Shown: positions 6,950 to 25,273 of the stretch, in pieces
Layout: each line of letters opens with the position of its first letter
Position numbering within the stretch: the first letter of the stretch is position 1
Source of the DNA: Polaribacter ponticola
GTDB taxonomy: Bacteria > Bacteroidota > Bacteroidia > Flavobacteriales > Flavobacteriaceae
NCBI RefSeq assembly: GCF_026191475.2
Contig: NZ_JAOSLC020000003.1
Location: 682,001-746,000 of the forward strand
Direction: 5' to 3'
DNA length: 64,000 nt
Made by a program: the position numbers and the translations under genes
Notes under the pieces: model-generated
The model's database searches: none
What the model was told of the DNA's origin: nothing
Seen by the model: only the letters and a program-made list of their open reading frames with translations

Positions 6950-6950
6950 A

Positions 6951-7209: not shown

Positions 7210-7225
7210 AGGCTAATCCGCAAAG

Positions 7226-7293: not shown

Positions 7294-7388
7294 AAATTTA
7301 CAAATATGTTAAAAAACGCTCAATTTATATTCAGCGTTTTCTATTTTGTATATTGTTCCCATCAAACTTAATTCAAACAAACTTTAAG

Positions 7389-10300
7389 ATGAAAAAATTA
7401 TTTACACTACTTTTTTTATGCACAACTACGCTCCTATTTTCTCAAGAATTTTCTATGGAAATGGTAAAAAACATGAAACCTAGAAATATTGGTCCTGGCG
7501 GAATGTCTGGTCGTGTAACTTCTATTGATGTTGTAGAAACGAATCCAGAAATTATGTACGTTGGTACAGCTTCTGGTGGTATTTGGAAATCTACTTCTGG
7601 TGGTGTAAAATGGAAACCTATTTTCGAAAAAGAATTAACAGCTTCAATTGGTGCAGTTGCCATTCAACAATCTAACCCAAGTGTAATTTGGGCAGGAACA
7701 GGAGAAGGAAATCCAAGAAATAGTTTAAATGGTGGTTTTGGTATTTATAAATCTTTAGACGCTGGTAAAACTTGGAAAGCGATGGGTTTAGAAAAAACGC
7801 GTCATATTCATAGAGTTATTATTCATCCTACAAATCCAGATATTGTGTATGTTGGCGCAATTGGTTCGCCTTGGGGAGAACATAAAGAACGTGGTGTTTA
7901 TAAAACAACTGATGGCGGAAAAACTTGGAAACAAATTTTATATAACAATATAAAAACAGGTGCTGCAGATTTAATTATGGACCCTAAAAATCCTAATAAA
8001 TTAATAGCTTCTATGTGGGAACACAAACGTGATCCTTGGTTTTTTAAATCTGGTGGAAAAGGAAGTGGTGTTTATATTACACACGATGGTGGAGAAAACT
8101 GGAAACAAATCACCGAAAAAGAAGGTTTTCCAAAAGGTGAATTAGGTAGAATTGGGGTTGCAATTGCACCTAACAATCCTGATGTGATTTACGCTTTAGT
8201 TGAAGCCAAAAAAAATGCATTGTACAAGAGTGAAGATGGCGGATTTAAATGGAAAAAAATTAACGATAAACCGGGTATTGGAAACCGTCCTTTTTACTAT
8301 TCAGAAATTTATGTAGATCCGCAGAATGAAAATAGGTTGTATACCGTTTTTACTTATATAAATGTTTCGGAAGATGGTGGTAAATCTTTTAAACAATTAA
8401 TGCCTGCGTATGGTGTAGATAATGGTGTGCATCCAGATCATCATGCTTGGTGGATTCATCCTAAAAACGGAAAATTCATGATTGATGGTAATGATGGCGG
8501 ATTAAACATTACCAAAGATGGTGGTAAATCTTGGCGATTTATTGGTAATATTCCCGTTGCACAATTTTATCACATAAATGTGGATAATGAATATCCTTAT
8601 AACGTGTATGGCGGAATGCAAGATAATGGTTCTTGGCGTGGTCCAGCATATGTTTGGAAAGCACAAGGAATTAGAAATTCTTATTGGCAAGAAATTAGCT
8701 TTGGTGATGGTTTTGATGTTGTCCCAGATAAAGACGATGCTCGTTACGGATGGACAATGAGCCAGCAAGGTTCTGTTTCTAGATTTGATTATTTAACGGG
8801 TAATAATTACAACGTAAAACCTACACATAAAGATGCAAACGTAAAATTACGTTTTAATTGGAATGCTGCTATTAATATTGATCCTTTTGATAATTCAACC
8901 TTATATTTTGGAAGTCAGTTTGTACATAAATCAACAGATAAAGGATTAACTTGGAATGTTATTTCTCCTGATTTATCTACCAATAATCCAGAAAAATTAA
9001 AACAAGCAGAAAGCGGTGGTTTAACAATGGATGCAACAGGTGCAGAAAACCATTGTACAATTTTGGTAATAGAACCAACTGTTTTAGAAAAAGATGTTTT
9101 GTGGGCAGCTACAGATGATGGACAAGTACATATTACTAAAAATGGTGGCGCAGTTTGGACCAATGTTGCAAAAAACATAAAAGGATTACCAGAAAATAGT
9201 TGGATTACTCAAATTAAAGCATCTAACAAAAACAAAGGAGAAGCCTTATTAATTGCCAATGATTATAGACGTTTTAATTATACTCCTTATGCTTATAGAA
9301 CTAAAAATTACGGAAAATCTTGGGAACGTATTGTTGATGAAAACGATGTACAAAGCTATACTTTGTGTATTATAGAAGATCCTGAAAATGAAAACTTACT
9401 ATTTTTAGGTACTGATGATGGATTGTACGTTTCTATAAACGCAGGAAACAAATGGACAAAATGGACAGAAGGTTTCCCAACGGTTCCTGTTAAAGATTTA
9501 GTAATTCATCCAAGAGAAAACGATTTAATTATTGGAACTTTTGGTAGAGCTGCTTGGGTTTTAGATGATATTCGCCCATTAAGAGCTATTGCGAATGGTG
9601 CTATTACTTCTAAAAAACTTGCATTATTTGCTCCTCCTGTAGCGTATCAAACAGCATCGCAACAACCAACAGGAAGTAGATTTGGTGCAGATGCAATGTA
9701 TCAAGGAGAAAACAGAAAACGCGGTGCACAAATTTCTTTTTATATTAATAAACCGAAAGTTGAGAAAAAAGAAGCAAGAGGAAAGAAACAAGATAAGACT
9801 CTAAAACAAATTCAGAGTGACACTAAAACCAGTGTCAAATATGATTCTATAAAACTAGAAGTCTTTGATGGAAATAGGAAAATTAGAACTCTAAAATTTA
9901 AAACTCCTAAAGAAAACGGAGTTCATAAAACAACTTGGTATTTAAGAGAAAAAGGAGTTGCAAGAGCTTCTAGAAGTATTAGAAAATCGAAAAGGGAACC
10001 AAGCGGAGTTACAGTAAAACCAGGAACATATCGTTTAAAAATGACTTTTGGAAACGACGTTTCTGAACAAAATATAAAAGTTGAATTTGACCCTAGACTT
10101 CAAATTTCTGAACAAGCGATTACTCAAAAATACAATGCTAGAAAAGAGCTTGAAAAATACCAAGAAAAAATTGCAAACATTGTAAAACAATTGGTAGAAA
10201 GCAAAAATACTGCAACATCTTTAAAATCTAAATTAAGTAAAGGAGACAAGAAAAAATATAAAAATGAGATTAAGTCTTCAACTAAAATCATCAAAAAAAT

Positions 10301-10595
10301 AGATACTTTAATTGCTATTTATCTAGGTACAATTGATAAAAGACAAGGAATTACTAGAAATCCAGAAGTTACTGTTAATAATCGTTTTGGAACTGCAAGT
10401 TGGTATGTAAGCTCTCGTTTTGGAGAACAAACAGCCACAGAAACGCAGTTGATAAATCAATTTAAAAATGCTTTTAAAGATGCAGTCTCTAAGACAAATT
10501 CATTTTTTAATAAAGAATGGATAAATTATAAATCATTAACAGAAAAGATATATATTTCGCCTTTTAAAGAAACTAAAATTTATTCAACAAACTAA
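7389..10595 (+). CDS. Secreted VPS10/BNR beta-propeller protein (sortilin-like, glycosyl-hydrolase-like)
   Basis: I chose ATG at 7389, which gives a clean signal peptide (MKKLFTLLFLCTTTLLFSQ); the frame stays open 35 codons further up without a better start. The body holds many Asp-box/BNR-type repeats (SLDAGKTWK, TTDGGKTWK, THDGGENWK, SEDGGFKWK, TKDGGKSWR), forming one or two propellers. A helical coiled region follows near the end. Proteins of about 1,070 residues like this are common in Bacteroidota and are usually called exo-sialidase- or sortilin-like, without proven activity. It leads an operon with DUF2490 and DUF819 genes (8- and 6-base gaps). Confidence 0.85.
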   Translation: MKKLFTLLFLCTTTLLFSQEFSMEMVKNMKPRNIGPGGMSGRVTSIDVVETNPEIMYVGTASGGIWKSTSGGVKWKPIFEKELTASIGAVAIQQSNPSVIWAGTGEGNPRNSLNGGFGIYKSLDAGKTWKAMGLEKTRHIHRVIIHPTNPDIVYVGAIGSPWGEHKERGVYKTTDGGKTWKQILYNNIKTGAADLIMDPKNPNKLIASMWEHKRDPWFFKSGGKGSGVYITHDGGENWKQITEKEGFPKGELGRIGVAIAPNNPDVIYALVEAKKNALYKSEDGGFKWKKINDKPGIGNRPFYYSEIYVDPQNENRLYTVFTYINVSEDGGKSFKQLMPAYGVDNGVHPDHHAWWIHPKNGKFMIDGNDGGLNITKDGGKSWRFIGNIPVAQFYHINVDNEYPYNVYGGMQDNGSWRGPAYVWKAQGIRNSYWQEISFGDGFDVVPDKDDARYGWTMSQQGSVSRFDYLTGNNYNVKPTHKDANVKLRFNWNAAINIDPFDNSTLYFGSQFVHKSTDKGLTWNVISPDLSTNNPEKLKQAESGGLTMDATGAENHCTILVIEPTVLEKDVLWAATDDGQVHITKNGGAVWTNVAKNIKGLPENSWITQIKASNKNKGEALLIANDYRRFNYTPYAYRTKNYGKSWERIVDENDVQSYTLCIIEDPENENLLFLGTDDGLYVSINAGNKWTKWTEGFPTVPVKDLVIHPRENDLIIGTFGRAAWVLDDIRPLRAIANGAITSKKLALFAPPVAYQTASQQPTGSRFGADAMYQGENRKRGAQISFYINKPKVEKKEARGKKQDKTLKQIQSDTKTSVKYDSIKLEVFDGNRKIRTLKFKTPKENGVHKTTWYLREKGVARASRSIRKSKREPSGVTVKPGTYRLKMTFGNDVSEQNIKVEFDPRLQISEQAITQKYNARKELEKYQEKIANIVKQLVESKNTATSLKSKLSKGDKKKYKNEIKSSTKIIKKIDTLIAIYLGTIDKRQGITRNPEVTVNNRFGTASWYVSSRFGEQTATETQLINQFKNAFKDAVSKTNSFFNKEWINYKSLTEKIYISPFKETKIYSTN

Positions 10596-10603
10596 ATAAA
10601 ATT

Positions 10604-11278
10604 ATGAATAAAGTAATTATCATTTTATTTTTAAGTCTATTCTCATTTACAATTTACGCTCAAAAATCTGCAGAAAATAAATTAGGTACATGGTATATGT
10701 ATAATGGTTCTCATAAGGTTTCAGAAAAATTCGCCTTAAAAACAATGGCACATTTTAGGTATTTTGAAGCTGCTAGTGAGTTTCAGCAAGAAATTTATAG
10801 ATTAGGAGTAAATTATTCATTTAACCCTAAAACAAATGTTACGGTTGGTGTAAGTTATGCAACTGCAGACATAGCTTATGATACGCCCTCTAATAATTTA
10901 TATGAATATCGTTTTTATGAAGATTTAAATTTAAAATCTAAATGGGGAAAGTTTAATGCTGGTCATAGAATTAGATTAGAACACCGCTTTATTCATAAAA
11001 ATATTACTGAAGAAACTACTCAAAGTTGGATTCGCTATAACCTTAACATTGGTTATCCGCTTTCAAAAAATTGGAGCGCATATGTTTTTAATGAATTGTT
11101 TTTAAATTTAGATAGAGGCAAAAGATTTGCTCAAAACTGGACTGGTGGTGGATTTATTCATAAACTAAACAATAGTATTAAATTTAAAATGGGATATTTT
11201 CAAATAAAATCTCCAAATAATGTTTTAAAAAGATTGCAATTAGGTGTTATTTTAAACACGAACCTCACAAAAAAATAA
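10604..11278 (+). CDS. DUF2490 family outer-membrane-type protein
   Basis: A signal peptide (to about residue 19, cut after YAQ) is followed by alternating amphipathic strands rich in aromatic residues (FRYFEAASEF, YRLGVNYSF, NAGHRIRLEHRF, WSAYVFNELFLN), typical of DUF2490. Such proteins look like small beta-barrels or beta-sheet shells in the outer membrane or periplasm. Function unknown. It lies 8 bases after the VPS10 gene. Confidence 0.85.
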   Translation: MNKVIIILFLSLFSFTIYAQKSAENKLGTWYMYNGSHKVSEKFALKTMAHFRYFEAASEFQQEIYRLGVNYSFNPKTNVTVGVSYATADIAYDTPSNNLYEYRFYEDLNLKSKWGKFNAGHRIRLEHRFIHKNITEETTQSWIRYNLNIGYPLSKNWSAYVFNELFLNLDRGKRFAQNWTGGGFIHKLNNSIKFKMGYFQIKSPNNVLKRLQLGVILNTNLTKK

Positions 11279-11284
11279 AATATA

Positions 11285-12592
11285 ATGACTGTACCCATTT
11301 TTACAAACGATGCTATAGTATTTGGTATTCTAATGCTTTCTTTAGGCTTTGTTTTTTATACAGAAAGTTTAAAATCTGGGTTTTGGCCTAAATTTTACAA
11401 AATTGTTCCTGGTTTATTTATGGCCTATTTTATTCCAGCCATTTTTACAACTGTAGGTGTAATATCTCCAGAATGGGAAACAACCAATTCTGTAGGGGAA
11501 ATTGTAAGTGGTAAATCTCAATTATATTATGTGTCTAGTCGTTTTTTACTACCAGCGGCCTTGGTTTTAATGACATTGAGTATCGATTTAAAAGCCATCT
11601 TTAATTTAGGTTCTAAAGCCTTAATTATGTTTTTTACCGGAACTGTTGGTATTATAATTGGTGGTCCTATTGCTATTTTATTGATATCAATATTTTCTCC
11701 AGAAACTGTTGGTGGTGCAGATTTTGATGCTGTTTGGAGAGGGCTTTCTACGCTTGCTGGAAGTTGGATTGGAGGTGGAGCAAACCAAACTGCAATGTTA
11801 GAAATTTATCAATACAATCCTCAAAAATATGGAGGAATGGTTTTTGTTGATATTGTTGTAGCCAATATTTGGATGGCAATTTTATTAATAGGAATTGGTA
11901 AAAAAGATAAAATTGATAAGTGGTTAGGTGCAGATACTTCTGCTATTGAAGAACTAAAAGATAAAGTATCTAAATTTACACAAGGAGTAAAAAGAAACCC
12001 AACATTAACCGATTTTATGATAATGCTAGCAATTGCATTTGGTACTGTTGGTTTTGGTCATTTTACATCTTCTTTTTTAAGTTCATTTTTTAATGGTTTA
12101 GTAGCAAGTATAGCTTCTGAAACTTGGAGAAATATATTTACATTTTTAGGTTCTGGTTTCTTTTGGTTGATAAGTATTTCTACAATTGTCGCAATTATTT
12201 TATCATTTACAAAGGCAAAAAATTATGAAGGTGCTGGCGCAAGTAAATTAGGTAGTATTTTTATTTACATTTTAGTAGCAACCATTGGTATGAAAATGGA
12301 TTTAGCAATGATTTTTGACAATCTGGGCTTAATTGCTATTGGTATTGTTTGGATGTCTATTCATGCAGGTTTACTAATTTTAGTTGCTAAATTAATTAAA
12401 GCTCCTTATTTCTTTTTAGCTGTTGGAAGTCAAGCAAACGTTGGTGGTGCAGCCTCTGCTCCTATTGTTGCACAAGCTTTTCACCCATCATTAGCAACTG
12501 TTGGAGTTCTTTTAGCTGTATTTGGTTATGCCATTGGAACTGTAGGTGCAATTTTATGTACTATTTTAATGGAATTATCTGCTACTTTATAA
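11285..12592 (+). CDS. DUF819 family integral membrane transporter-like protein
   Basis: The 435-residue product is mostly membrane helices (about ten). It has the glycine-rich motifs of DUF819, such as GSWIGGGANQTAM in the middle and VGSQANVGGAASAPIVAQ near the end, which suggest a duplicated transporter fold. Substrate unknown. It is the third gene of the VPS10-DUF2490-DUF819 operon, so it might import something released by the propeller protein; that is speculation. Confidence 0.87.
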   Translation: MTVPIFTNDAIVFGILMLSLGFVFYTESLKSGFWPKFYKIVPGLFMAYFIPAIFTTVGVISPEWETTNSVGEIVSGKSQLYYVSSRFLLPAALVLMTLSIDLKAIFNLGSKALIMFFTGTVGIIIGGPIAILLISIFSPETVGGADFDAVWRGLSTLAGSWIGGGANQTAMLEIYQYNPQKYGGMVFVDIVVANIWMAILLIGIGKKDKIDKWLGADTSAIEELKDKVSKFTQGVKRNPTLTDFMIMLAIAFGTVGFGHFTSSFLSSFFNGLVASIASETWRNIFTFLGSGFFWLISISTIVAIILSFTKAKNYEGAGASKLGSIFIYILVATIGMKMDLAMIFDNLGLIAIGIVWMSIHAGLLILVAKLIKAPYFFLAVGSQANVGGAASAPIVAQAFHPSLATVGVLLAVFGYAIGTVGAILCTILMELSATL

Positions 12593-12630
12593 AAAAAACA
12601 GCATATTTGCATTCGAAAATTTCAATCAAA

Positions 12631-13335
12631 ATGAGAAAAATTACTGCGGTTTTAGCTTTATCAATATTACTTTTTGCATGTTCTTCTAAAAAAGAAGGAA
12701 ACATGATTGTTCAAGGGCAAATTAAAGGCCTTAAAAAAGGGACTTTATATCTTCAGAAAATGCAAGATAGTTTGCTAGTTTCTATTGATTCTGTAGCATT
12801 ATTAGGTAAAGACACTTTTACATTAACAGATTATGTAGAAGAACCGGTAATGTATTATTTAACTTTTGATGGAAATACAACAGATAAGAGAATTTTATTT
12901 TTTGGTGAAGAAGCAACAATTACAATTAATGATAAAGTAGACCAATTTGGTTTTGCTCCCGAAATTTCTGGATCTAAAAATCAAGAAATATTAGATAAAT
13001 ATAATGTAGTTAGTCGCAGGTTTCAAGATCAACGTTTAGAATTCATTAAAAAAGATTTTGAAGCTAAACGAGCAAATGACCCAAGTTTAGTAAAAAAAGT
13101 AGAAGAGGATTATAATAGATTAGTGAAAAGAAGAGTTCTTTTTACAACCAATTTTGCACTTAACAATGCTAATTTTGAAGTTGCACCGTATATTGCTTTA
13201 ACAGAAATGTATGATGCTAGCTTAAAAATGTTAGATACTGTTAATTTTTCTTTATCTCCTAAAGTTAAAAAATCTATTTACGGTAAACGTTTTCAAGAAT
13301 ATTTAAATAATATAAAAAATAGCGAGAATAAATAA
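12631..13335 (+). CDS. DUF4369 lipoprotein
   Basis: ATG at 12631 gives a lipoprotein signal (MRKITAVLALSILLFACSSK, lipid Cys17). The upstream extension overlaps DUF819 and is unlikely to be used. The body starts with VQGQIKGLKKGTLYLQKMQD and SVALLGKDTF, matching the DUF4369 beta-domain often found before thioredoxin domains in Bacteroidota. Here no thioredoxin domain follows: the rest is helical and the protein ends at 234 residues. The gene converges on the DUF255 gene with a 5-base gap. Confidence 0.85.
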   Translation: MRKITAVLALSILLFACSSKKEGNMIVQGQIKGLKKGTLYLQKMQDSLLVSIDSVALLGKDTFTLTDYVEEPVMYYLTFDGNTTDKRILFFGEEATITINDKVDQFGFAPEISGSKNQEILDKYNVVSRRFQDQRLEFIKKDFEAKRANDPSLVKKVEEDYNRLVKRRVLFTTNFALNNANFEVAPYIALTEMYDASLKMLDTVNFSLSPKVKKSIYGKRFQEYLNNIKNSENK

Positions 13336-13340
13336 TCGAA

Positions 13341-15452
13341 TTACTTATCGATACTATTTTTTGCTTTTTCTATATCTGTTACAGGTAATTTACAAGTTCC
13401 ATTTACACATACATAAATTAAGGTTTTATCTTCATTAAATTTATATGCCAACAATGGTAATGTAGTATTATCTTTAACTGTACCTGCTATAATAACATTT
13501 GGTATATAACTATTGAATAAATTCTTATTTACTAAATTGGCATTTTTGCCAGCAACAACTACCTCGTAAAAAGGTTTTGTAAAATTGGTCATTAAATTTA
13601 ACCAATTACTATAATTCGCAGGGTTTTTTAGAATATCTTCTTTTAAATTATTCAACATTTGTTCTGACGTTTTTAAAAATTTAGTATCAGAATAATAATG
13701 TCCTAACTTAAATAGAGAGTTTGCAATTATAGAGTTTGAAGCAGGTATTACACCATCAATTATTTCGTGTTTTCTGGCAATTAAAATTTCGTCTTCTTTT
13801 GACGTAAAGTAGAACATCTGTGTATTATCATCAAAGAAGTTGATAAACAAATAATTCATTAATTTTTTTGATGTTGATAACCATTTTTCATCTAAAGTAA
13901 CTTCATACAAAGAAATAAAAGATTTTATAACAGCTGCATAATCTTCAGAGTACCCATTTATATTACTTGTTCCGTCTTTAAAATTTCTATTTAAGCCATT
14001 GTCATTTCTTAATTGATTTTCAATTAAAAAATTAGCGTTTTTTAAAGCTATATTCAAATATTCTTCATCTTCAAAAGCCCTATAAGCATCAATATAACCT
14101 TGTAGCATTAAAGCATTCCATGAAGTTAATACTTTATCATCTAAATGTGGTTTACTTCTATTTTCTCTAACTTTTTTAAGTACGGTTTTCCAACTTAAGA
14201 TTTTAATATTTAAAGATTCTAAAGAAATATTTTTCTCTTTAGCAAAATCAATTTTGGTTTTATTTCTAATTAGCACATATTGATCTTTTTCCCAGAAACC
14301 ATAATCATTAACATTATAAAACTCTTTAAAAAGATTAAAATCGTTTTTAAGTAATTTCTTTAATTCTGATAATCTCCATTTATAAAAAGCACCTTCTTCA
14401 CTTTCTCCTTTATCATTTTTACTATCTGCATCTAATGAGGAATAAAACGCCCCGTTTTTAGCTGTTAACTCTTCTTTAATAAAGTTTAAGGTTTCGACTA
14501 CTGTACTTTTATATAAATTGTTATTATCGTTTAAATATGCTTTAGAATACAAACTCACAAGTTGCGCATTATCATATAACATTTTCTCGAAATGTGGAAT
14601 GTGCCATTTCTCATCTACAGAATATCTAGAGAAACCACCATAAACTTGATCGTAAATTCCACCAAAAGCCATTTTAGTTAAACTCTTTTTTAAATAAGAA
14701 TTTACAGAAGCATCTTTAAACTGATAATTATATCTTAATAAAAAATCTAAAGAAGTTGGCATTGGAAATTTAGGAGTTCCTTTAAACCCGCCAAAAACAG
14801 TATCCATTTGCTCTTTTATCAAATTAACAGAAGTTAAAATTTCTTTATTTGTAAAACTAGGCTTCTCTTTTTTTAAAGTTATTAATTGACTCTCTTGCAT
14901 TCCTTTTGTTAGATTTTCTGCAAATTCAATCGCTTTTTTAGGATTTTCTTTATACAACTTAGATATTCCTTTTAAAACTTCTGACCATTGCTTTTTTGTA
15001 AAATAAGTTCCTCCAAAAACAGGTCTTCCATCTGGTAACGTTATACAATTTAATGGCCAACCTCCACTACCAGTCATTAACTGTACAGCATTCATATATA
15101 CTTTATCTACATCGGGTCTTTCTTCTCTATCAACTTTAATATTAATAAAATTTTCATTCATTAATTTGGCTATTGAATCGTTTTCAAAACTTTCCTCTTC
15201 CATTACATGGCACCAATGACAAGCAGAATAACCAACAGAAACTATAATTAACTTATTTTCCTTTTTTGCTAATTCTAATGTTTCTGAATTCCACGCCTTC
15301 CAATTTACTGGGTTATATGCGTGTTGCAATAAATACGGACTTGTTTCATGTATTAAGTCATTACTTATTTTATCAGAAGCTATTTCCTTATTAGAACAAC
15401 CGAAAAGAGCAAAGAATAGAAGAACTGTTAAATATTTAATATGAGTTTTCAA
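13341..15452 (-). CDS. DUF255/YyaL-type thioredoxin-domain lipoprotein
   Basis: A lipoprotein signal ([12 protein letters not shown], Cys19) is followed by a DUF255 thioredoxin-like domain with [42 protein letters not shown]-type and GSGGWPLN motifs. A large alpha/alpha-barrel region resembling N-acylglucosamine 2-epimerases follows ([38 protein letters not shown]). Length 703 fits the family. Biochemical role is unproven. A terminator hairpin upstream isolates it from the neighbouring glucan locus. Confidence 0.9.
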
Positions 15453-15534
15453 TTAAGAGTTTAATTTTATTTCTATAAAGATATTAATTTCCTTTTATGT
15501 GCTTTATTAAATTCTAAAAAAAGAGCATAAAAAA

Positions 15535-15563
15535 AAACGCTCAAAATAAAATTTTGAGCGTTT
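15535..15563 (-). terminator. Terminator after the module-only glucan-binding gene
   Basis: AAACGCTCAAAAT pairs perfectly with ATTTTGAGCGTTT around a 3-base loop, 25 bases past the stop of the gene at 15588, with A/T runs on both sides. Confidence 0.85.
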
Positions 15564-15587
15564 AAATTTAAAAAATATAAAATGTAT

Positions 15588-17972
15588 TTACTTCTTAATA
15601 AATTTTACTGTTCCAACTGCTTTATCAATAGTATATTTAATTAAGTAAACACCTTTTGATAAACCAGAAACATCTATAGTTTCGTTATTTTTATTAATGT
15701 TTAAACTCATAACTTGTTTACCTAACATATTATAAACAACTGTATTCTTAATAGTACTTTGAGAAGAAATATATAATCTATTCGAAGTAGGATTTGGGTA
15801 AATAGAGACATTTAATAGTACATTATCATTTATACTCGCAGTTGCTCCGTTAGAAAAATAAAAGTTATCTATATAAACAGGATTTGTTGCTCCAGTTGCA
15901 CTTAATACTAATTGACCTAAATCGTTAAACATAATAGCTGTATCTGCTGATGAAAATTCAGTTAAAGCAATACTAACTCTTTCCCAAGATCCTGTTGTTA
16001 TTGCTTTGGTAATTTCTACTTCTGTATTATCACTTCCCCAAGCGCCATCTCCTTTATAATCTACTAACTTAATTTTTAATTCTGTAGCATCACTTGTCCA
16101 ATAATCAACATTTATGTGAGTCATAGATGAAGCATCTATTGTTGAACCTGTTGGTTCTACTCCAGAAAATGTAAAACTAGAATATTTTTTAACCGCATTT
16201 CCTGCAATTGTAACATCCTCTAAAACTGTAGATTGACCCCAAGAAGGATTCCAAGTTGCTTCTACATCTGTATAAGCATCACTAAAAAGTGAAATTGAAT
16301 TTTCTGCTGTAGTTGTTGGTGCTTCTGGCGCTGTAGTTGGTAATGTTACCGCAGCTGTTGAACCATTAGAAAAGTAAAAATTATCTATGTAAACAGGATT
16401 TGTTGCTCCAGTTGCACTTAATACTAATTGACCTAAATCGTTAAACATAATAGCTGTATCTGCTGATGAAAATTCAGTTAAAGCAATACTAACTGTTCCC
16501 CAAGATCCTGTTGTTATTGCTTTGGTAATTTCTACTTCTGTATTATCACTTCCCCAAGCGCCATCTCCTTTATAATCTACTAACTTAATTTTTAATTCTG
16601 TAGCATCACTTGTCCAATAATCAACATTTATGTGAGTCATAGATGAAGCATCTATTGTTGAACCTGTTGGTTCTACTCCAGAAAATGTAAAACTAGAATA
16701 TTTTTTAACCGCATTTCCTGCAATTGTAACATCCTCTAAAACTGTAGATTGACCCCAAGAAGGATTCCAAGTTGCTTCTACATCTGTATAAGCATCACTA
16801 AAAAGTGAAATTGAATTTTCTGCTGTAGTTGTTGGTGCTTCTGGCGCTGTAGTTGGTACTGTTACCGCAGTAGTTGAACCATTAGAAAAGTAAAAATTAT
16901 CTATGTAAACAGGATTTGTTGCTCCAGTTGCACTTAATACTAATTGACCTAAATCGTTAAACATAATAGCTGTATCTGCTGATGAAAATTCAGTTAAAGC
17001 AATACTAACTGTTCCCCAAGATCCTGTTGTTATTGCCTTGGTAATTTCTACTTCTGTATTATCACTTCCCCAAGCGCCATCTCCTTTATAATCTACTAAC
17101 TTAATTTTTAATTCTGTAGCATCACTTGTCCAATAATCAACATTTATGTGAGTCATAGATGAAGCATCTATTGTTGACCCTGTTGGTTCTACTCCAGAAA
17201 ATGTAAAACTAGAATATTTTTTAACCGCATTTCCTGCAATTGTAACATCCTCTAAAACTGTAGATTGACCCCAAGAAGGGTTCCAAGTTGCTTCTACATC
17301 TGTATAAGCATCACTAAAAAGTGAAATTGAATTTTCTGCTGTAGTTGTTGGTGCTTCTGGTGCTGTAGTTGGCGCAGCAGCATCATTACTATTATCATTC
17401 CCAGCAGATTTTGTTCTATTTGCACTCCATTGTACATTATCAAAATAAGTTATATTATCTGTTGTTCGTTCTGACCATTCAGGAAAAATTACTAATTGAT
17501 CAATATTGTGGTTTTCACCGCTAGCTATAAAGCTAGAAATATCATAAGTCAAAGTTTCCCAAGCATTGATTGTAGCATTCGCTTGTTTTAATTCGAAAAC
17601 TGTTCCACTTGTTGAGTTAACAAATTTAACACCAACATCACTAATAACTGTTTTATGAACCATTATTGATATTGTATTATTCCCAGATTCTAAAATCCAT
17701 TCACCTAAACCTCCATGACTGGTTTCTGCTCCTGCCCAAGGTTTTCCTGATTGCAATGAAGTAAATTTTGCGACTTTATCTGATGTATTGTTTCCTGTAG
17801 TATTTGGATTAGTAACAATTTCGACTCCTGGATTAGTATCGTTCTCAAAAGTATTCCATATAGAAGCTAAACTTCCATCTGTATCAGTTTCAAAACTGAC
17901 AACAAATGTTTCTTGTTGTGCATACCCTATTGATGCAGCAAGTAATAAAAGTAAAAGAGTAATTTTTTTCAT
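15588..17972 (-). CDS. Type-IX-secreted multimodular beta-glucan-binding protein without a catalytic domain
   Basis: Signal peptide 1-19; one module (call it A) about 20-182 (FETDTDG, TNPNTTGNNTSDKVAKF, WAGAE); three module-B copies about 214-365, 386-537 and 558-709 (ISLFSDAYTDV, NPSWGQSTV, HINVDYWTSDATEL, PVYIDNFYFSNG) joined by TTAPEAPTTTA linkers; and a C-terminal type IX sorting domain about 721-794 (SIYPNPTSN, GVYLIKY). No glycosidase fold is present. Both module types recur in the surface lipoprotein at 31909, so glucan binding is likely, and they may belong to recently described laminarin-binding module families. The gene has its own promoter region, shared in motifs with susC, and its own terminator. 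Confidence 0.85.
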   Translation of the reverse strand: MKKITLLLLLLAASIGYAQQETFVVSFETDTDGSLASIWNTFENDTNPGVEIVTNPNTTGNNTSDKVAKFTSLQSGKPWAGAETSHGGLGEWILESGNNTISIMVHKTVISDVGVKFVNSTSGTVFELKQANATINAWETLTYDISSFIASGENHNIDQLVIFPEWSERTTDNITYFDNVQWSANRTKSAGNDNSNDAAAPTTAPEAPTTTAENSISLFSDAYTDVEATWNPSWGQSTVLEDVTIAGNAVKKYSSFTFSGVEPTGSTIDASSMTHINVDYWTSDATELKIKLVDYKGDGAWGSDNTEVEITKAITTGSWGTVSIALTEFSSADTAIMFNDLGQLVLSATGATNPVYIDNFYFSNGSTTAVTVPTTAPEAPTTTAENSISLFSDAYTDVEATWNPSWGQSTVLEDVTIAGNAVKKYSSFTFSGVEPTGSTIDASSMTHINVDYWTSDATELKIKLVDYKGDGAWGSDNTEVEITKAITTGSWGTVSIALTEFSSADTAIMFNDLGQLVLSATGATNPVYIDNFYFSNGSTAAVTLPTTAPEAPTTTAENSISLFSDAYTDVEATWNPSWGQSTVLEDVTIAGNAVKKYSSFTFSGVEPTGSTIDASSMTHINVDYWTSDATELKIKLVDYKGDGAWGSDNTEVEITKAITTGSWERVSIALTEFSSADTAIMFNDLGQLVLSATGATNPVYIDNFYFSNGATASINDNVLLNVSIYPNPTSNRLYISSQSTIKNTVVYNMLGKQVMSLNINKNNETIDVSGLSKGVYLIKYTIDKAVGTVKFIKK
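15840..17375 (-). repeat. Three tandem 516-bp coding repeats
   Basis: The same landmark (AACAGGATTTGTTGCTCC) recurs at 15876, 16392 and 16908, a period of exactly 516 bases or 172 codons. Copies are almost identical; differences include GSWERV in the C-terminal copy against GSWGTV in the others, and small changes in the Thr/Ala linker. Near identity at silent sites indicates recent duplication or ongoing gene conversion. Confidence 0.95.
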
Positions 17973-18044
17973 AATTATAAATAATTTAAAACGTTGTGAA
18001 CAATATTAATCATAAACTAGACTATATTAATATTTTACACCACT

Positions 18045-18196
18045 ACAAAAAACATACAGATTTAAAAAAACCTTTATTTAACAGGAAAAAACGAATGATA
18101 ACAATAATTTTATTACTATTTTTCCTTTAAAAGAAAAAACAATTTATATCTAATGTTTTATATTTGTATGGGTAATGTATAGGTAATTTAAACACC
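18045..18196 (-). promoter_or_regulatory. Putative glucan-responsive control region of the module-only gene
   Basis: ACAAAAAACATACA lies at 18045-18058, 73 bases before the start codon, and TTGTATGGGT at 18164-18173. Both strings recur upstream of susC, the first at nearly the same distance (72 bases). Here the second element is doubled as an 11-base direct repeat, TGTATGGGTAA then TGTATAGGTAA (18165-18186), which is one helical turn per unit, followed by AAACACC. Confidence 0.6.
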
Positions 18197-18223
18197 TGAT
18201 TTCTAAAAATTTATTAAAAATAA

Positions 18224-18255
18224 AAAAAGGGCTTCTTAAAACAGAAACCCTTTTT
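18224..18255 (-). terminator. Terminator at the end of the glycosidase operon
   Basis: AAAAAGGG (18224-18231) pairs with CCCTTTTT (18248-18255), extended by a weak inner CTTC/GAAA-like pairing. It sits 16 bases past the stop of the cytosolic GH17 gene. Confidence 0.7.
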
Positions 18256-18270
18256 GAATATTAATATTTT

Positions 18271-19185
18271 TTAATACTTTAATTTTTCGTATTTATCCCA
18301 TAAACCCCAATAAGCTCCAACATCTCCCTCTGCCCCAACTTTCCAAGATTCATCAAAAGAAGAAAAATAAAACATCTCTACATCATCTACCTCAGACCAC
18401 ACTTGTGAGTTTACAAAATATTTCATAGCGTTTGCAACTCCAGAATGTGCACCTCCTAAACTACTACCTTCACTTGGCCAACCAGTTTCTGTAATGATTA
18501 CTTTTTTACCATTAGCGGCATCTTTTGCTTGGTTGTACATCTGCTGCATGTGATTTAAAGAATATTCTATACTACAACCTTCCCAATAGGGATAACAATT
18601 TGCCAAAATAACATCGCAAACTTCCGTAATTGCTGGTCTTTTAGAAAACTCATAATACGCATCTACATAACCAACTTCTATATTTGGAATTGCTTTTTTA
18701 ACTCTATTTATATATGCCAATAATTCTTCTTCTGTTAACTCTTTACGATATAAAACTTCATTCCCAACTGCTGCAATATCTACATAGCCTTCTTTAGCAA
18801 GTTGAATTAATCCTTCTATTTCAATTTCGTTTTTTTCTAAATCATCACCTAACCAAGCTCCAACCAATGTTTTAATCCCTTGTTTTTTAGCAATTTTAGG
18901 AATATTTTCATTGCCCTCAATACAAGAAAAAGAACGAATCCATTTTGTATAAGGTTTTAAAATTTTTATTCTTCTTTCTACTTGTTCTTCTGTAATAGTA
19001 TCTCCTGGTTCTTGTCCATCTTCATATATACTAAAACAAATACCATGCATTCCACTATCTAAAGTTTCTCTCCACAGTTTTTTTAAATCTTCTTCTTTAT
19101 ACTGATTAAATTCAACTCCTATATTTTCTTTATATAAAGACTTTGCTTTACTAACTGAAAGATGTTGTTCTTTTCTATAAGACAT
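18271..19185 (-). CDS. GH17 family beta-1,3-glucanase/glucosyltransferase, probably cytosolic
   Basis: A TIM-barrel protein of 304 residues with the GH17 acid/base in AAVGNEVLYR (Glu143) and nucleophile in VIITETGWPSEG (Glu233). There is no signal peptide or lipobox at the N-terminus (MSYRKEQHLSV), unlike the second GH17 at 22151, so it should act in the cytoplasm on imported oligosaccharides. It is the last gene of the run 28732-18271, 3 bases after the transporter, and a terminator follows. Hydrolysis of beta-1,3 links is the family's usual activity; transglycosylation is also possible. Confidence 0.88.
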   Translation of the reverse strand: MSYRKEQHLSVSKAKSLYKENIGVEFNQYKEEDLKKLWRETLDSGMHGICFSIYEDGQEPGDTITEEQVERRIKILKPYTKWIRSFSCIEGNENIPKIAKKQGIKTLVGAWLGDDLEKNEIEIEGLIQLAKEGYVDIAAVGNEVLYRKELTEEELLAYINRVKKAIPNIEVGYVDAYYEFSKRPAITEVCDVILANCYPYWEGCSIEYSLNHMQQMYNQAKDAANGKKVIITETGWPSEGSSLGGAHSGVANAMKYFVNSQVWSEVDDVEMFYFSSFDESWKVGAEGDVGAYWGLWDKYEKLKY

Positions 19186-19188: not shown

Positions 19189-20616
19189 CTATTTAATATT
19201 TTGTTTTCTTTCTTGTAATTGTAACCTTATTTCATTTGCTCGTTTTTCATCAATATCATAATCCCACATAATATACATTGCTAAAACAGTACCTAGAACT
19301 GGGAAAAAACAAAAGAAAGTATGTAAACCATCTACTGCAACTTGCTGATCTACTGTTGCAAGATCTGGGTTAAAACCTACAATAGCAATTATAACACCAC
19401 TTAAAGCACCTGCAATAGCAAAACCTACTTTAACCATCCACCAATAAATAGCACCAAATATTCCTTCTCTCCTTTTTCCTGTATTTAGTTCGTCAATATC
19501 AATTATATCTGCTGTCATAGACATCATAATTGTAAATAAACTTCCAATACCAAAAGAGAAGAATGGTAACGCAATTATATACATCCAAGGTTTACCAGGT
19601 ACAAATAAAAACCACAACATTAAGTAACCAATAATAGATATTCCTTGTGCTACTAAAAAAGCTGTTTTTTTGCCCCAAATCTTAGACATATAGGTAATAA
19701 TTGGTATTACTAAAAATGTTGTACCTAATGCTCCTAAACAACCAAATAAAGAAACCCAAATACCACTTTCTGCTGCATCTCCATTAAATAATTTGTAGAC
19801 AATTACAAAAAATGTTAAAGCTGCAACTGTATTAAAAGCATTGTAAATTAAAAATGTAGCTCCACATAATTTTCTAAATACTTTTATTCTAAAGGCTTCT
19901 TTAAAACTAGTAAATATCTTTGTTAAACTACCTCCAATATTTGCTGTATTTAAAGGCTCGTAATCTTTATCTAAGGTAGATTCACTTTTAATAAAAATAG
20001 CAGGAACTATAGCACAAATTGCACAGGGTATAGCTACCCAAATAGATAATTCTCTTACTGCTATTTCTGCTGATGGAAACCATTCTGGATCATACATAAT
20101 AATCCAAAACCATGGTGCAATAACCCAAGCCCATTGACCAATCCATTGTGCAATAGCCATAATACTTGTACGTTCATGAAAATCATCACTCATTTCATAA
20201 CCCATAGCTACATATGGAACACTAAAAAAAGTTAATCCTAAATAGAAGATAATAGACCATAAGAAAAAATACCAAAAGTTAAATTGTAAAGAATTTTCTT
20301 TAAAAAGTTGCCACATAAAAATGTAAGCAATTCCCATTATAATTCCGCCAATTACAACATATTGTCTACGTCTTCCCCATTTAGATTTCGTATTATCAGA
20401 AATAAAACCCATTATTGGATCTGTAATAGAATCAAAAATTCTTGGAAAAAAATAGATTAAAGACCACATCCAACCTGGAAAGCCTAAATCTTGAACCAAA
20501 ACAACCATAAATATCCCTAAAATAGCAGGAAACATCTGATTCGCAAACATGCCTATACCAAAGGCAATTTTTTGTCCCATTGGTACTTTTGCTTTTATTG
20601 TTATATTTTTTGACAT
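19189..20616 (-). CDS. MFS sugar:cation symporter (GPH type)
   Basis: About twelve membrane helices and the GPH (glycoside-pentoside-hexuronide) layout: FGIGMFANQMF at the start, RIFDSITDPIMGFISDNTKSKWGRRR (quoted in part; residues about 60-86) with the conserved Asp and RRR loop, and ADIIDIDELNTGKRREG in the second half. It should import glucose or laminari-oligosaccharides across the inner membrane. Its place between GH30 and the cytosolic GH17 supports that role. Confidence 0.88.
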   Translation of the reverse strand: MSKNITIKAKVPMGQKIAFGIGMFANQMFPAILGIFMVVLVQDLGFPGWMWSLIYFFPRIFDSITDPIMGFISDNTKSKWGRRRQYVVIGGIIMGIAYIFMWQLFKENSLQFNFWYFFLWSIIFYLGLTFFSVPYVAMGYEMSDDFHERTSIMAIAQWIGQWAWVIAPWFWIIMYDPEWFPSAEIAVRELSIWVAIPCAICAIVPAIFIKSESTLDKDYEPLNTANIGGSLTKIFTSFKEAFRIKVFRKLCGATFLIYNAFNTVAALTFFVIVYKLFNGDAAESGIWVSLFGCLGALGTTFLVIPIITYMSKIWGKKTAFLVAQGISIIGYLMLWFLFVPGKPWMYIIALPFFSFGIGSLFTIMMSMTADIIDIDELNTGKRREGIFGAIYWWMVKVGFAIAGALSGVIIAIVGFNPDLATVDQQVAVDGLHTFFCFFPVLGTVLAMYIMWDYDIDEKRANEIRLQLQERKQNIK

Positions 20617-20648: not shown

Positions 20649-22145
20649 TTAATTTGGAACAACAATTGTTTGAATTGCTTGCCCTTGAATTGAGATTGCT
20701 ATATTCTTTTCATTTAAGACCAAGTTTAACGTTTTAGCTTTTGTTCCTTCATTAAATGCAACAATTGCAATTGTACCATCAGGATTTTGAGCTGCTGTTA
20801 CCATTAACTCGTTATCTGAATTTTCTAAACCAATAACTTTAGCTTCCGGTCTAATAAATTTGCTAAAATGTGAAAGTGTGTAATAAAGAGGTGTTAAATA
20901 AACTTCATCTTTAGCTGGATCTACAATTACTGGAGCAACACACCAATTCTCGAACCAATTTGGACCTCCTTTGGTATCTAAAACCATATTCCAATCAATC
21001 CAACCATCAACATAATTATTTAAACAACCAATAATATCTCTTGCGTATCTGTTTACTGGAGCATATTTAGGATGCAAATGTTTGTCTTTTTCAGGAGCCC
21101 AATCCCAACCCCAATCTGTTGCTTCTTTTCTCCAATACCAAGCATCATCTTGCCATTTTGGAATTTCTGAATCTACACAGGCTTCTGACTGAATTAAGTA
21201 TTTGTTAGGTGCTTTGTTGTGAGCATATTGTAATTCTTTTGGAAAAACCTCATAAGTACTTGCATACCAATGAATGGCTGTTCCATCAAAATACTTAGAA
21301 GTTGCTTCGTTTTTAAATTGAGAATCTACCCATTCGTTTAAGTGTTCTCTGTTTTGATCGTAACCTAAAATTTTAGCTTTATGACCATCTGCTTCTAGTT
21401 TGGGGCCTAAATGATTTTGCACAAAATTGGTCATTTCATCAGGAGAATAATGCATACTTTCCCAATTATTACCATTTCCTAGAGGTTCATTTTCTACAGT
21501 AAAACCCCAAATATCTATTCCTTCTGCTTTGTAAGCATCAATATATTTAGAGAAAAATAACGCCCAAGTATCATAATATTCTGGCAATAATTTACCTCCA
21601 ACCCATTTTTTGTTATCCTTCATCCAAGGTGAAGCTGTCCAAGGAGATGATAAGATTTTAAAACCGTCTTTAGATACTTTCATAGCATCTTTTATCATTG
21701 GTATAATATCATCTTTATCTTCTTCTATCGTAAAATGTTTTAACTCTTTATCTCCTTCAACTGGCGCATAAGAATACTGACTGATAGAAAAATCACATGA
21801 ATTCATATGTGTTCTTGTTAAAGAATATTTTGCTCCAGTTTCTCCAAAATAAGCTTCAATAATAAAATCTCTTTTTTCTTTGCTTAACTGGTTCAATAAA
21901 GAAGCAGAAGATTCTGTAAAAGAACCTCCAAAACCTGTTATAGTTTGTCTTTTTTGTGCTGGCAATAATTTTACTTGTATTAAATTTTCATCGTTTTTAT
22001 CTGAAGAAAAGTTTTCTAATTTTGTTAAACTATTTCCACTTGCTGAAGTTTCATACACTTCTACAATTAATTTATCTTGTTTTGTTTGACAACTTAAAAT
22101 CATAAAGGATAGCAAAAAGTACAGTAAGTAGTTTATTTTTTTCAT
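20649..22145 (-). CDS. GH30 lipoprotein, likely endo-beta-1,6-glucanase
   Basis: Lipobox Cys19 (FMILSCQTK) indicates membrane anchoring. The GH30 barrel shows ITGFGGSFTESSA near residue 70, LSSPWTASPWMK, the acid/base Glu220 (or Glu218) in GFTVENEP, and nucleophile Glu321 in YLIQSEAC. A small beta-domain closes the protein (VTAAQNPDGTIAIVAFNEG). In laminarin loci GH30 enzymes usually remove or cut beta-1,6 side branches. The same fold also includes beta-glucosylceramidases. It lies within the glycosidase operon. Confidence 0.9.
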   Translation of the reverse strand: MKKINYLLYFLLSFMILSCQTKQDKLIVEVYETSASGNSLTKLENFSSDKNDENLIQVKLLPAQKRQTITGFGGSFTESSASLLNQLSKEKRDFIIEAYFGETGAKYSLTRTHMNSCDFSISQYSYAPVEGDKELKHFTIEEDKDDIIPMIKDAMKVSKDGFKILSSPWTASPWMKDNKKWVGGKLLPEYYDTWALFFSKYIDAYKAEGIDIWGFTVENEPLGNGNNWESMHYSPDEMTNFVQNHLGPKLEADGHKAKILGYDQNREHLNEWVDSQFKNEATSKYFDGTAIHWYASTYEVFPKELQYAHNKAPNKYLIQSEACVDSEIPKWQDDAWYWRKEATDWGWDWAPEKDKHLHPKYAPVNRYARDIIGCLNNYVDGWIDWNMVLDTKGGPNWFENWCVAPVIVDPAKDEVYLTPLYYTLSHFSKFIRPEAKVIGLENSDNELMVTAAQNPDGTIAIVAFNEGTKAKTLNLVLNEKNIAISIQGQAIQTIVVPN

Positions 22146-22150: not shown

Positions 22151-23439
22151 TTATCTAGGATATTCTGTATTAGGCACTAAAACAGTTTTCATTAATGCTG
22201 TTTTATTTCCGTTAAAAGTTTTGATAATTTTATTTCCACCCTTTTTAAATCTTTAAAAGCACCTTTATCTACTAAATTCCAAAGAGGATATTTAGCTTCA
22301 CCTTTTAAAGTAAATAAACCAAAGTGATTTTCTGAACCTTCAGGATTTTGTGCATCTTTCCACTATTCGTCAAAGGCCTCAAAATAGAAACAAGAAATAC
22401 CCTCTTTTTTAGTCCAATCTCTTAAGTGATTATAATACAACCCTTGTTTATATTCATCTGTTGCTCTAGAACCATTTACTCCATAATGACCACTTGAAAC
22501 TGTTGCCCATCCTGTTTCTCCAATATGAATCGTTTTGTTAGAATCTATACTTTTAACATAATCAGAAACATCTTTATATTGCCTTTTTGCAAAGTCTAAA
22601 GCACGTATCATGGCTTTGTCTATCTTTTCTTTATCAGATAAATGCTGTTCATTATCTGGTACTTTCCAAAATCCAGGGTTATAATGTGAGTTATGGTATG
22701 CATAAGTATGCATAGAAACATAATCTACCGCTTTTATTAAATCTTCTAAATCTTTAACTCTATAACTTGGGTCTCCACCACCCCAAGAAGCAAAATCGTC
22801 TGAACAAGTAATCCATAAATCCTTAGAAAGTTTGCCTTCTTTTTTTAAGTTCTGTAAATAGTTTACATATTTTAAAATTATATTAGGTCTTACAAAATAA
22901 CTAGTTGCCCAACGAATCATAGCTTCATTACCAACTGCAATTACTTTTACTATGTCTGGGTATTTATTAGCCAAAACAACTGCTCTTTCAATTTCCCCTT
23001 CATTTTGGTCGCTTTCAACTTCATGATTTGGTTCTTTATCTGTCCAAGCATTTAAACAATCTATCCAAGCGCCTAACATTACATACATTTTAAAAGTTGC
23101 ATCTTCTTTTTTAAGTTGATGAATAGCTTCTAAAATATTTGCAGCATGTGGTAATTCTGGTTGTACATTATAGGTTCTAATAATTCGAATTCCCATGGCA
23201 TGCATCAACTTTAAATCTTCTTTAAGTTCTGGAATTGTAGGCTGATTATCTTCTCTTGATTTCTCTCTATATCCTCCATAAGAAATTGCTAAATAATCTG
23301 GATTTCCTAAAATTTTGGCTGCTGTCATTTCTTCTTTAATTTCTTCCTTTTTGTTTTCTTTACTAGAACTACATCCAAAACCAATAATAGATACTAATAC
23401 AAGTATTGTTACTTTTAAGTTTGATTTTACCTTTTTCAT
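22151..23439 (-). pseudogene. GH17 lipoprotein broken by TAG and a frameshift
   Basis: Lipobox Cys23 (IIGFGCSSSK), acid/base Glu172 (IAVGNEAMIR) and nucleophile Glu308 (HIGETGWA) are intact. The frame stops at TAG (22363-22365) in EAFDE-stop-WKDAQNPEGSEN, where the reading continues in the same frame with family-like sequence (HFGLFTLKGEAKYPLWNLVD). A second break follows at 22239-22246 (AAAAAGGG on the coding strand), after which another frame gives GGNKIIKTFNGNKTALMKTV to TAA at 22151. As written, the product loses about 70 C-terminal residues including barrel strand 8. The catalytic pair survives, so activity cannot be excluded. Confidence 0.88.
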
Positions 23440-23470: not shown

Positions 23471-25273
23471 TTAATAGGTTAAACCAAATCCGTAAGGAAA
23501 TAATGGTTTTATTGTTTTATCCCAAAAATTAGGGCCATATTTTCCTTTAAAATCTTCTACAGATTTTGGCCAAGAATGAGGTAACTTACCAGAGAAATTA
23601 GAATCGCCAAAAAGCACTTCTGCAACTCCATCTCCTTCAGAACCTAATAACCAAGCTGCTACAAAAGCATCTGATTTTTCTATCTGATTTGTTACCACTA
23701 ATGGTCTACCTGAAACTAAAACAACAACCGTTTTAACTCCTTTTTCTTGATAGATTTTTATATATTTCTGATGAGTTTCTGATAAGGTTAATTTCAGTTG
23801 ATTAGATTCATGACCAACATCTCCCATAAATTCTGCATACGGTGTTTCTCCAACCATAATAATGGCAACATCAGCATCAAAGTGATTTTGAGTTGCTGTA
23901 GAATCATAGACAACTTCTCCTTTTGCTTGCTGTTTTATTCCGTCTAAAATGGTAGTTGCTCCTTTGTAGCTTTCTTTAGTTCCTTGCCAATTAATTGTCC
24001 AACCACCAGATTGTAAACCACTATTATTTGCATGCTCACCAACTACAACAATTTTCTTTGTTTCTTTTGATAAAGGCAAAGTTTTATCCTTATTCTTTAA
24101 TAAAACCAAAGATTCTCTTACCGCTTGTTTTGCTATTTTTCGATGCTCTTTACTACCTACTTTTGTTACTAAACTTGTATCGGGAAAAGGATTTTTAAAC
24201 AAGCCTAATCTATATTTTTGACGTAATATTCTTTTTACTGCATCATCAATTCTAGCAATAGAAACTGTGCTATCTTTAACGCCGTTTTTTAAACCGTTTT
24301 GAAAAAATTCTAAATCTCCATCAACAGCCATAATCATATCTACACCTGCATTTACAATATCATTTCCTCCAAATCTAGAATAGCCTTTCCAATCAGAAAC
24401 TACAATACCATTAAAGTTCATACCAACTTTTAGAGTGTCTGTAATTAATGCTTTATTAGCATGCATAGAAACATTGCCTATTTTATTAAATGAAGCCATT
24501 ACTGCACCAATACCTTCGTTTACAGCAACTCTATAAGGTGCAAGAAGTCTATCATTTATTTCAGCTGCATTTAAAGAAGTATTACCACCTTCTACCCCAA
24601 AATCTGTTGCACCATCACCTATAAAATGTTTAGCGGTTGCCATAACAGTTGTAGGATCTTTTAAATTTCCTTGATGACCTTTAATAGATGCTTTTGTTAG
24701 TTTTGTTGTAAACTCTGTACTTTCTGAAAATGCCTCATAAACTCTACCCCATTTTTCATTAAAAGGAATTGCAACACAAGGAGAAAACACCCAATTAAAA
24801 CCAGTTGCTTGACTTTCTATTGCAGTAATTCTTGCAATATTTTCAACCAATTTTTCGTTTCTAGTAGCGCCTAAACCTATATTATGAGGAAAAATAGTGG
24901 CGCCTTCATAAGTGTTTTGCCCATGAACAGCATCAACAGCAAATAACAAAGGAATACCCAATCTTGTAGAAAGTGCTTTCTTTTGAAGTGCTATAAATTT
25001 GTTTTGCCATTCTAAAGCAGTTTCTCCAGGAAGTGGACCTTGTGTATGAATAATAGAACCTAAAAATTTAGACGTAACAGATTCTTCAGCAGATTTTTCA
25101 AAATGAATAATTTGAGTCATCTGACCAATTTTCTCTTCTAAAGTCATTAACTTTAAAAGAGAATCTATTTTTTGTTCTACAAGTGGCTTGCTACTACTTT
25201 TCATATCATTACAACAGATAATGCATATCAATACTAAACAACAAACCACATATGCAATATCTATTCTTTTCAT
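23471..25273 (-). CDS. GH3 family beta-glucosidase lipoprotein
   Basis: An N-terminal hydrophobic stretch ending in CC (Cys20/Cys21) suggests a lipoprotein. The GH3 domain shows DAVHGQNTYEGATIFPHNIG, ATAKHFIGDG (Lys-His pair) and the nucleophile Asp294 in IVVSDWKGYSR. The second alpha/beta domain starts near residue 385 (ESLVLLKN) and the protein ends at 600 residues without an FnIII domain (LFPYGFGLTY). It should release glucose from short beta-glucans in the periplasm. It starts one base before the GH149-like stop, so the two are translationally coupled. Confidence 0.92.
   Translation of the reverse strand: MKRIDIAYVVCCLVLICIICCNDMKSSSKPLVEQKIDSLLKLMTLEEKIGQMTQIIHFEKSAEESVTSKFLGSIIHTQGPLPGETALEWQNKFIALQKKALSTRLGIPLLFAVDAVHGQNTYEGATIFPHNIGLGATRNEKLVENIARITAIESQATGFNWVFSPCVAIPFNEKWGRVYEAFSESTEFTTKLTKASIKGHQGNLKDPTTVMATAKHFIGDGATDFGVEGGNTSLNAAEINDRLLAPYRVAVNEGIGAVMASFNKIGNVSMHANKALITDTLKVGMNFNGIVVSDWKGYSRFGGNDIVNAGVDMIMAVDGDLEFFQNGLKNGVKDSTVSIARIDDAVKRILRQKYRLGLFKNPFPDTSLVTKVGSKEHRKIAKQAVRESLVLLKNKDKTLPLSKETKKIVVVGEHANNSGLQSGGWTINWQGTKESYKGATTILDGIKQQAKGEVVYDSTATQNHFDADVAIIMVGETPYAEFMGDVGHESNQLKLTLSETHQKYIKIYQEKGVKTVVVLVSGRPLVVTNQIEKSDAFVAAWLLGSEGDGVAEVLFGDSNFSGKLPHSWPKSVEDFKGKYGPNFWDKTIKPLFPYGFGLTY

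Follow-up and report, generated by a model that had tools for sequence, protein, structure and literature searches.

The region analysed here (the window) is a stretch of 64,000 nucleotides of the Polaribacter ponticola genome, and the locus described lies on its - strand. Along this strand, the genes encoded a SusC-like protein (35449-38451) and a SusD-like protein (33957-35438), which jointly occupy 33957-38451 and which we presume to be such by resemblance, a SusE-like lipoprotein with the order PKD-B-A-A that carries both the A and the B modules discussed below (31909-33945), a GH16 lipoprotein (30208-31890; Pfam PF00722, 3.6e-23), a 433-aa lipoprotein with a GH2-type TIM barrel match (28800-30101; PF02836, 29.3 bits, cut-off 21), a GH149 beta-1,3-glucan phosphorylase (25274-28732; NF058639, 1817 bits, cut-off 1150), a GH3 enzyme labelled by resemblance (23471-25273), a GH17-like glucanase (22363-23439), a GH30 glucanase (20649-22145; PF02055, 1.1e-75), an MFS sugar transporter, also labelled by resemblance (19189-20616), a GH17 enzyme (18271-19185; PF00332, 2.7e-10) and, last, the putative non-catalytic binder that is the subject of this work (15588-17972). 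The gene at 22363-23439 had no family above cut-off in Pfam or NCBIfam, and we take it to be GH17-like by resemblance. The GH149, GH3, GH17, GH30, MFS and GH17 genes that precede the binder gene agree with the laminarin-type locus proposed in the original prediction. In gene content, the locus agrees with "variant B" of the laminarin loci of North Sea Flavobacteriia, which shares GH30 and at least two GH17 genes beside GH16 and GH3 and is homologous to the laminarin-induced locus of Polaribacter Hel1_33_49, while the accessible part of that description mentions neither a T9SS binder gene nor GH149 (PMC6298971).

The GH17 gene and the binder gene are separated by 298 bp. This gap contains a terminator-like hairpin (18224-18255) and another one follows the binder gene (15535-15563), both on the - strand and both pattern matches only. 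A stretch of 3 kb contained 3 terminator-like sites, little more than the 1.2 (sd 1.2) of shuffled sequences; sigma-70-like sites numbered 11, compared with 15.4 in shuffles. The TANNTTTG motif was absent from the 298-bp gap and present in one of six homologous gaps. An own promoter of the binder gene was considered and dropped, since the site counts were near or below those of the shuffles and TANNTTTG was not found. Because of the hairpin in the 298-bp gap and the absence of a TANNTTTG-type promoter there, co-expression of the binder with GH17 is putative.

The binder is a 794-aa ORF with an ATG start that occupies positions 15588-17972 exactly. It had been predicted to consist of a signal peptide, one module A, three copies of module B and a sorting domain, and the ORF, module and TIGR04183 results confirmed this plan. 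As read by eye from the translation, residues 1-18 (17919-17972) form a putative Sec-type signal peptide without a lipobox, with a hydrophobic stretch followed by an A-Q-Q site. Module A spans residues 21-184 (17421-17912). The B modules, CBM30/CBM11-like beta-sandwiches, span residues 208-368 (B1, 16869-17351), 380-540 (B2, 16353-16835) and 552-712 (B3, 15837-16319); B1 and B2 share one protein sequence over the module core, B3 has two internal substitutions relative to B1, and the copies are linked by AVTxPTTAPEAP. Residues 724-794 (15591-15803) form a T9SS type A sorting domain. The 794 residues include no cysteine, and for residues 19-723 a pI of 4.05 was calculated. The full-length model (pLDDT 80.7, pTM 0.33) is all-beta with five domains, and its low-confidence stretches are the linkers at residues 192-197, 366-369, 538-541 and 711-720. 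No catalytic family was above cut-off in the protein (Pfam matches with E up to 1; NCBIfam with E up to 0.01), so both the family scans and the predicted model support the claim that it contains no enzyme. SGBP_B_XBD of Pfam matched below its cut-off (E 9e-4, 19.8 bits versus 26.4), which is consistent with a binder.

Module A was compared with PDB entry 8QX6, which is titled "Novel laminarin-binding CBM X584". A profile built from 11 A modules matched 8QX6 at an E-value of 2.1e-18, and 8QX6 was also the top structural match for module A in the full-length model (Z 15.5, rmsd 2.6, 147 aligned). This entry may belong to the CBM102/CBM103 modules reported from Christiangramia forsetii (Zuehlke et al. 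2024); a search of 397 genomes of the family found no protein identical to it, the best reaching 72%. The A profile also weakly matched CBM4 of laminarinase 16A (1gui, 0.02), and Cas12i chains at 0.4 were regarded as noise. With the 794-aa binder alone as the query, phmmer missed 8QX6 and the sorting domain was the sole match at E up to 10, while the SusE-like protein of the locus as the query reached 8QX6 at 4.2e-10. The entry scored 68.9 bits against the A profile and 4.8 bits against the B profile, and the two profiles are remote relatives of each other (hhalign probability 94%); module B is thus only a remote relative of X584. Modules A and B were found in SusE-like proteins adjoining SusC, SusD and GH16 genes. 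X584-type modules adjoined such genes in all five loci fetched (18 genomes matched), and a SusE-type N-terminus was recognised in four of the five, whereas module A here is part of a T9SS cargo protein. Module A is a relative of 8QX6 in sequence and in predicted structure, and its binding of laminarin is putative. The original prediction of repeated binding modules is supported at the sequence level by this relationship to a laminarin-binding CBM of known structure and by a homologue in the genus (L139) that combines A and B with a GH16 enzyme.

The model of module B (pLDDT 93.2, from 39 sequences) matched CBM30 first in Foldseek (E 2.1e-6), followed by CBM11 (3.1e-6 to 5.3e-6), CBM29 and others. 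VIA-align gave Z scores of 12.5, 12.2 and 11.9 against CBM30 (2c24), 8QX6 and CBM11 (1v0a), respectively. Structures other than CBMs scored as high as CBM30, among them a complex I assembly intermediate (Z 13.0) and an agarase (Z 12.7), and B therefore cannot be assigned to a family by its fold alone. In the profile search, CBM11 alone was matched, weakly (0.009), and quinol oxidase at 0.16 was noise. No Pfam match to CBM_11 or CBM30 was found for the 794-aa binder at E up to 1. Two homologues taken as whole proteins passed the cut-offs of 27 bits, one with CBM30 (L039, 32.4 bits) and one with CBM_11 (L079, 37.6 bits), although no single stretch of them passes. W27, W112 and Y154 of module B were conserved in all 39 aligned modules. 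According to its predicted model, module B folds like CBM30/CBM11.

The B copies recur with a period of 516 nt and share 97.7-99.2% DNA identity over the module, so the repeat did not arise by chance. Three-copy B arrays were also present in Z022 and in Polaribacter Hel1_85, the latter with an intact A-BBB homologue (L040). The B copies of P. ponticola are about equidistant from every B of these two (67-73% protein identity), whereas the copies of Z022 and Hel1_85 pair by position, with 94-97% protein identity versus 82-85% otherwise. Since the copies of P. ponticola resemble each other and those of Z022 and Hel1_85 pair by position, recent amplification or gene conversion in the P. ponticola lineage is indicated. 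The positional pairs retain their 94-97% protein identity though 18-21 of 69-73 four-fold sites have changed, and the B modules of Z022 and Hel1_85 are, judged by these substitutions, under constraint.

Arrays were also compared between the genomes G001 and G021. The end of module A, B1-B3, the sorting domain and the sequence to just past the stop codon shared 93% DNA identity (L119 9305-11318, in reverse-complement coordinates, versus L123 9220-11237). The N-terminal parts with module A shared only 40% protein identity, and four other proteins of the locus shared 68-88%. Because the cassette is 93% identical in DNA next to N-terminal parts at 40% protein identity, a module cassette has apparently been exchanged between two species within one gene. 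The arrays found beside catabolic genes were A-B, A-BB, A-BBB, A-A-B, B-B, B-B-B-B, A-A-A and a single recognised B.

The sorting domain matched TIGR04183 with 53.5 bits (cut-off 23) and PF18962 at 2e-13, in agreement with the predicted T9SS cargo. Its model superposed on the RemA C-terminal domain bound in the T9SS (8gl6_D) with Z 11.3 and rmsd 1.6 over 73 aligned residues. SprA, GldL and PorV are encoded in the P. ponticola genome. SprA is spread over three frames in the assembly, and this split is likely an assembly error, given that short homopolymers are found close to the frame breaks and that further genes are split as well. Genes apparently split over frames were seen at 46759-48182, 53535-55246 and 61746-63117 of the window, at L159 675-7737 and at G000:C3:768366-769300; they include helicase-like, PpiC-like and DUF2130-like genes, SprA and a PorV-family gene, some of these names being our assumption. 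The assembly may carry many indel errors. Type A sorting domains allow static anchoring or release, with that of AmyB giving release and that of RemA giving anchoring plus release (PMC12618676, accessible text). Because type A domains support either outcome, the binder could be anchored or shed.

Matches to the 794-aa binder at 1e-15 were found in 62 of 97 genus genomes, a sample that includes one genome named Tenacibaculum (MAR_2009_124; locus L070, genome G045). GH149 was found at 1e-50 in 60 of the 97, and 57 of these were over the curated cut-off. T9-type matches were defined as tblastn matches that either start at residue 1 and reach residue 180, or end at residue 790 or later and begin at residue 675 or earlier. 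Such a match was present in 50 of the 60 genomes with GH149 versus 4 of the 37 without it (Fisher p 8e-13, uncorrected for relatedness and thus overstating independence because the species are related). The four include G095, with a 1021-aa ORF alone, and G056, with an A-GH16-B enzyme; omitting both leaves 2 of 37. Among the 60 genomes with GH149, the match lay within 20 kb of GH149 in 39, further away on the same contig in 5 and on another contig in 6, while 10 had no match. The second GH149 pieces of two genomes were excluded from this linkage count. A second, long ORF of 1019-1038 aa is present in four of the genomes counted. The binder is not essential in all GH149 genomes, because 10 of the 60 lack a match and 11 more carry it elsewhere or on another contig.

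Forty genus loci, a non-random sample hand-picked from the better matches, yielded 39 ORFs with A or B plus a sorting domain. Among the gene classes sought, the nearest same-strand upstream gene was GH17 or MFS in 26 of the 39, at 58-1229 bp; one further ORF, a fragment, had GH17 at 5112 bp, and 12 had none of the sought classes upstream in the stretch. Four of the 39 are fragments: L125, L126 and L136 run off the contig, and a gap of N interrupts L129. Locus L151 has the sorting domain only and is outside the 39, with its genome (G029) still counted as linked. In 11 of the 39 ORFs, one B and the sorting domain alone were recognised, the front part being unassigned or missing. A second set, based on the B pattern and on the best 80 of 259 relatives, gave 26 binder-type ORFs in 25 of 78 named loci. 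The hosts of these 26 ORFs were Polaribacter, Tenacibaculum, Lewinella, Neolewinella, Mesonia, Cloacibacterium, Flavobacterium and other Bacteroidota. In 10 of the 26 ORFs, the nearest upstream sought gene was GH17 (7) or GH16 (3), at 27-346 bp. Three loci are common to both sets (L038/L120, L041/L122 and L070/L124). The enzyme content of the relatives refers to comparison with the enzymes of the window, plus Pfam for 10 ORFs and L124, and long stretches without assignment persist in relatives such as L066, L106 and L127. A one-off protein was ruled out, as the binder recurs across the genus and in other Bacteroidota. Such a binder had been called unusual beforehand; this holds for the literature searched but not for genomes, where a large part of the genus has it at this gene position and other Bacteroidota have it too.

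Related modules were also seen in other settings. Locus L139 encodes, away from such catabolic genes, a T9SS protein with the order A-GH16-B (9179-11200), of laminarinase type with GH16 confirmed by Pfam, in genome G056, which has no GH149 match. A module A is apparently inserted within the GH16 match of lipoproteins at L043 11088-13196, L103 10490-12601 and L114 10490-12601. In Gemmatimonadota and some other phyla, B occurred mostly in multi-B ORFs without a sorting-domain profile match, often near GH16 and MFS genes. Five such loci from Gemmatimonadota-type and Zixiibacteriota MAGs (L048, L050, L052, L062 and L069) have 2-5 B copies with MFS and mostly GH16 or GH3 nearby.

The P. ponticola genome has a second glucan-type locus, L183 (G000:C3:419000-438900, 213-18941). 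It encodes an 842-aa protein with A-A and a sorting domain, a 265-aa protein with A and a sorting domain, and a 656-aa protein with four A modules, a lipobox as judged by eye and a last module that passes Pfam CBM_4_9. It also encodes an MFS transporter in two pieces and a GH94-type 1,2-beta-oligoglucan phosphorylase domain. These sequences suggest that the binder plan, in which a lipoprotein array is accompanied by a short T9SS binder, serves a second time for beta-1,2-glucan. Because A-like modules also occur in this putative beta-1,2-glucan locus, the ligand does not follow from the module family.

Known systems share parts of this plan. SGBP-B/SusE-like proteins are outer-membrane lipoproteins, and gut Bacteroides reportedly have SGBPs for laminarin. 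Like the binder, SGBP-B/SusE-like proteins consist of non-catalytic tandem CBM-like modules and are encoded in the locus of their own glycan, but the binder has no lipobox and no cysteine and carries a T9SS sorting domain instead. To our knowledge, remA does not belong to a polysaccharide locus. RemA of Flavobacterium johnsoniae is, like the binder, a non-enzymatic T9SS type A cargo protein with a sugar-binding domain and the same sorting-domain fold, but it is a gliding adhesin (PMC12618676, accessible text). CHU_1279 of Cytophaga hutchinsonii likewise has CBM-like domains, two of them, without an enzyme and is needed for cellulose use, and its presence weighed more than its binding ability; it differs from the binder in being found in the outer membrane fraction and in having two modules, and the accessible part of that paper does not mention a T9SS sorting domain (PMC12016534). 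Among the top-ranked records of the literature searched, which consisted mostly of openly accessible text, we found no T9SS-exported non-catalytic binder in a laminarin locus. The binder is apparently a widespread T9SS variant of surface glycan-binding proteins that this literature does not describe.

Given its anatomy, its folds, the homology of module A to a laminarin-binding CBM and its strong linkage to the laminarin locus across the genus, we consider it probable that the binder is secreted and binds beta-1,3-glucan (laminarin) in a multivalent manner, as the T9SS-delivered counterpart of lipoprotein surface glycan-binding proteins, with its ligand, valency, anchoring and effect on uptake inferred. 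After Sec export and T9SS transfer, as its sorting domain implies, the binder would be placed beyond the outer membrane. The four beta-sandwich modules on flexible linkers could then bind laminarin avidly and reach further from the membrane than SusD and SusE. Captured glucan would be imported through the GH16/SusCD machinery and then reach the GH17, GH30, GH3 and GH149 enzymes, as the locus suggests. Since import is what the locus is built for, we rank an anchored or partly shed binder first. By analogy, a capture role fits the selfish laminarin uptake of Formosa, the loci of which are induced by laminarin, although this protein is not named there (PMC6246565, accessible text). The roles proposed beforehand, namely tethering of laminarin particles, scaffolding or retention of glucan for selfish uptake, are all reasonable candidates.

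Alternatively, the binder might be released into the medium, where it would coat or cross-link glucan or algal debris and thereby allow enzymes or cells to attach to it; we regard this as somewhat unlikely. The sorting domains of AmyB and, in part, RemA provide precedents for release (PMC12618676, accessible text), several like modules could cross-link, the calculated pI is 4.05 and no cysteine is available for a lipid anchor. However, competitors would profit from the substrate held by an enzyme-free binder once it is shed, and the locus is built for import (SusCD and MFS, labelled by resemblance). The superposition on the sorting domain of RemA, which partly anchors, is a weak point against release, since type A domains generally share this fold.

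Less probable still is that the binder is an adhesin or scaffold that attaches cells to algal particles, its modules recognising other surface glycans or partner enzymes and laminarin uptake being a by-product. Adhesins often vary in module array between species, and the binder gene at this site does encode different arrays in different species. RemA, a type A cargo protein with a lectin domain, serves as a gliding adhesin (PMC12618676, accessible text). The strong link of the binder to GH149 genomes and the sharing of A and B with the SusE-like protein of the locus and with the GH16 enzyme of L139 speak against this role. Module amplification without function, in which the B copies would have arisen by recent tandem duplication and be subject to neutral drift, would be in line with the near identity of B1-B3 in DNA, but it is very improbable given the three-copy arrays of Z022 and Hel1_85, in which the copies differ from each other (82-86% protein identity) and each is conserved between the two. 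Hidden catalysis in one module or in the junctions is hardly credible and was rejected on the family scans, the structural matches and the full-length model: glycan-active enzymes do occur among the structural matches, but their matched ranges (exo-beta-agarase 44-236, xanthanase 652-814) are presumably accessory domains, no catalytic family passes in Pfam or NCBIfam, and five domains with short linkers fill nearly the whole chain.

Laminarin is a major marine carbon pool on which flavobacteria of this kind feed during blooms, and models of selfish uptake are built on SusCD and lipoprotein binders. If T9SS-exported binders are widespread, glycan capture would gain a step outside the SusCD and lipoprotein layer, and the question would arise of why an import locus keeps a protein that may be shed. 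We tentatively propose that the binder forms a second, so far unrecognised shell of glycan capture in marine Bacteroidota beside membrane-bound SusD and SusE, a T9SS-exported flexible CBM array that keeps its place among the genes of laminarin loci while its contents can be exchanged. Cassette swaps between species might then tune valency and specificity to local laminarins, as a fast-evolving glucan bait, with the same plan reused in the putative beta-1,2-glucan locus. The exchangeable arrays would offer a series of natural variants that differ in valency and specificity.
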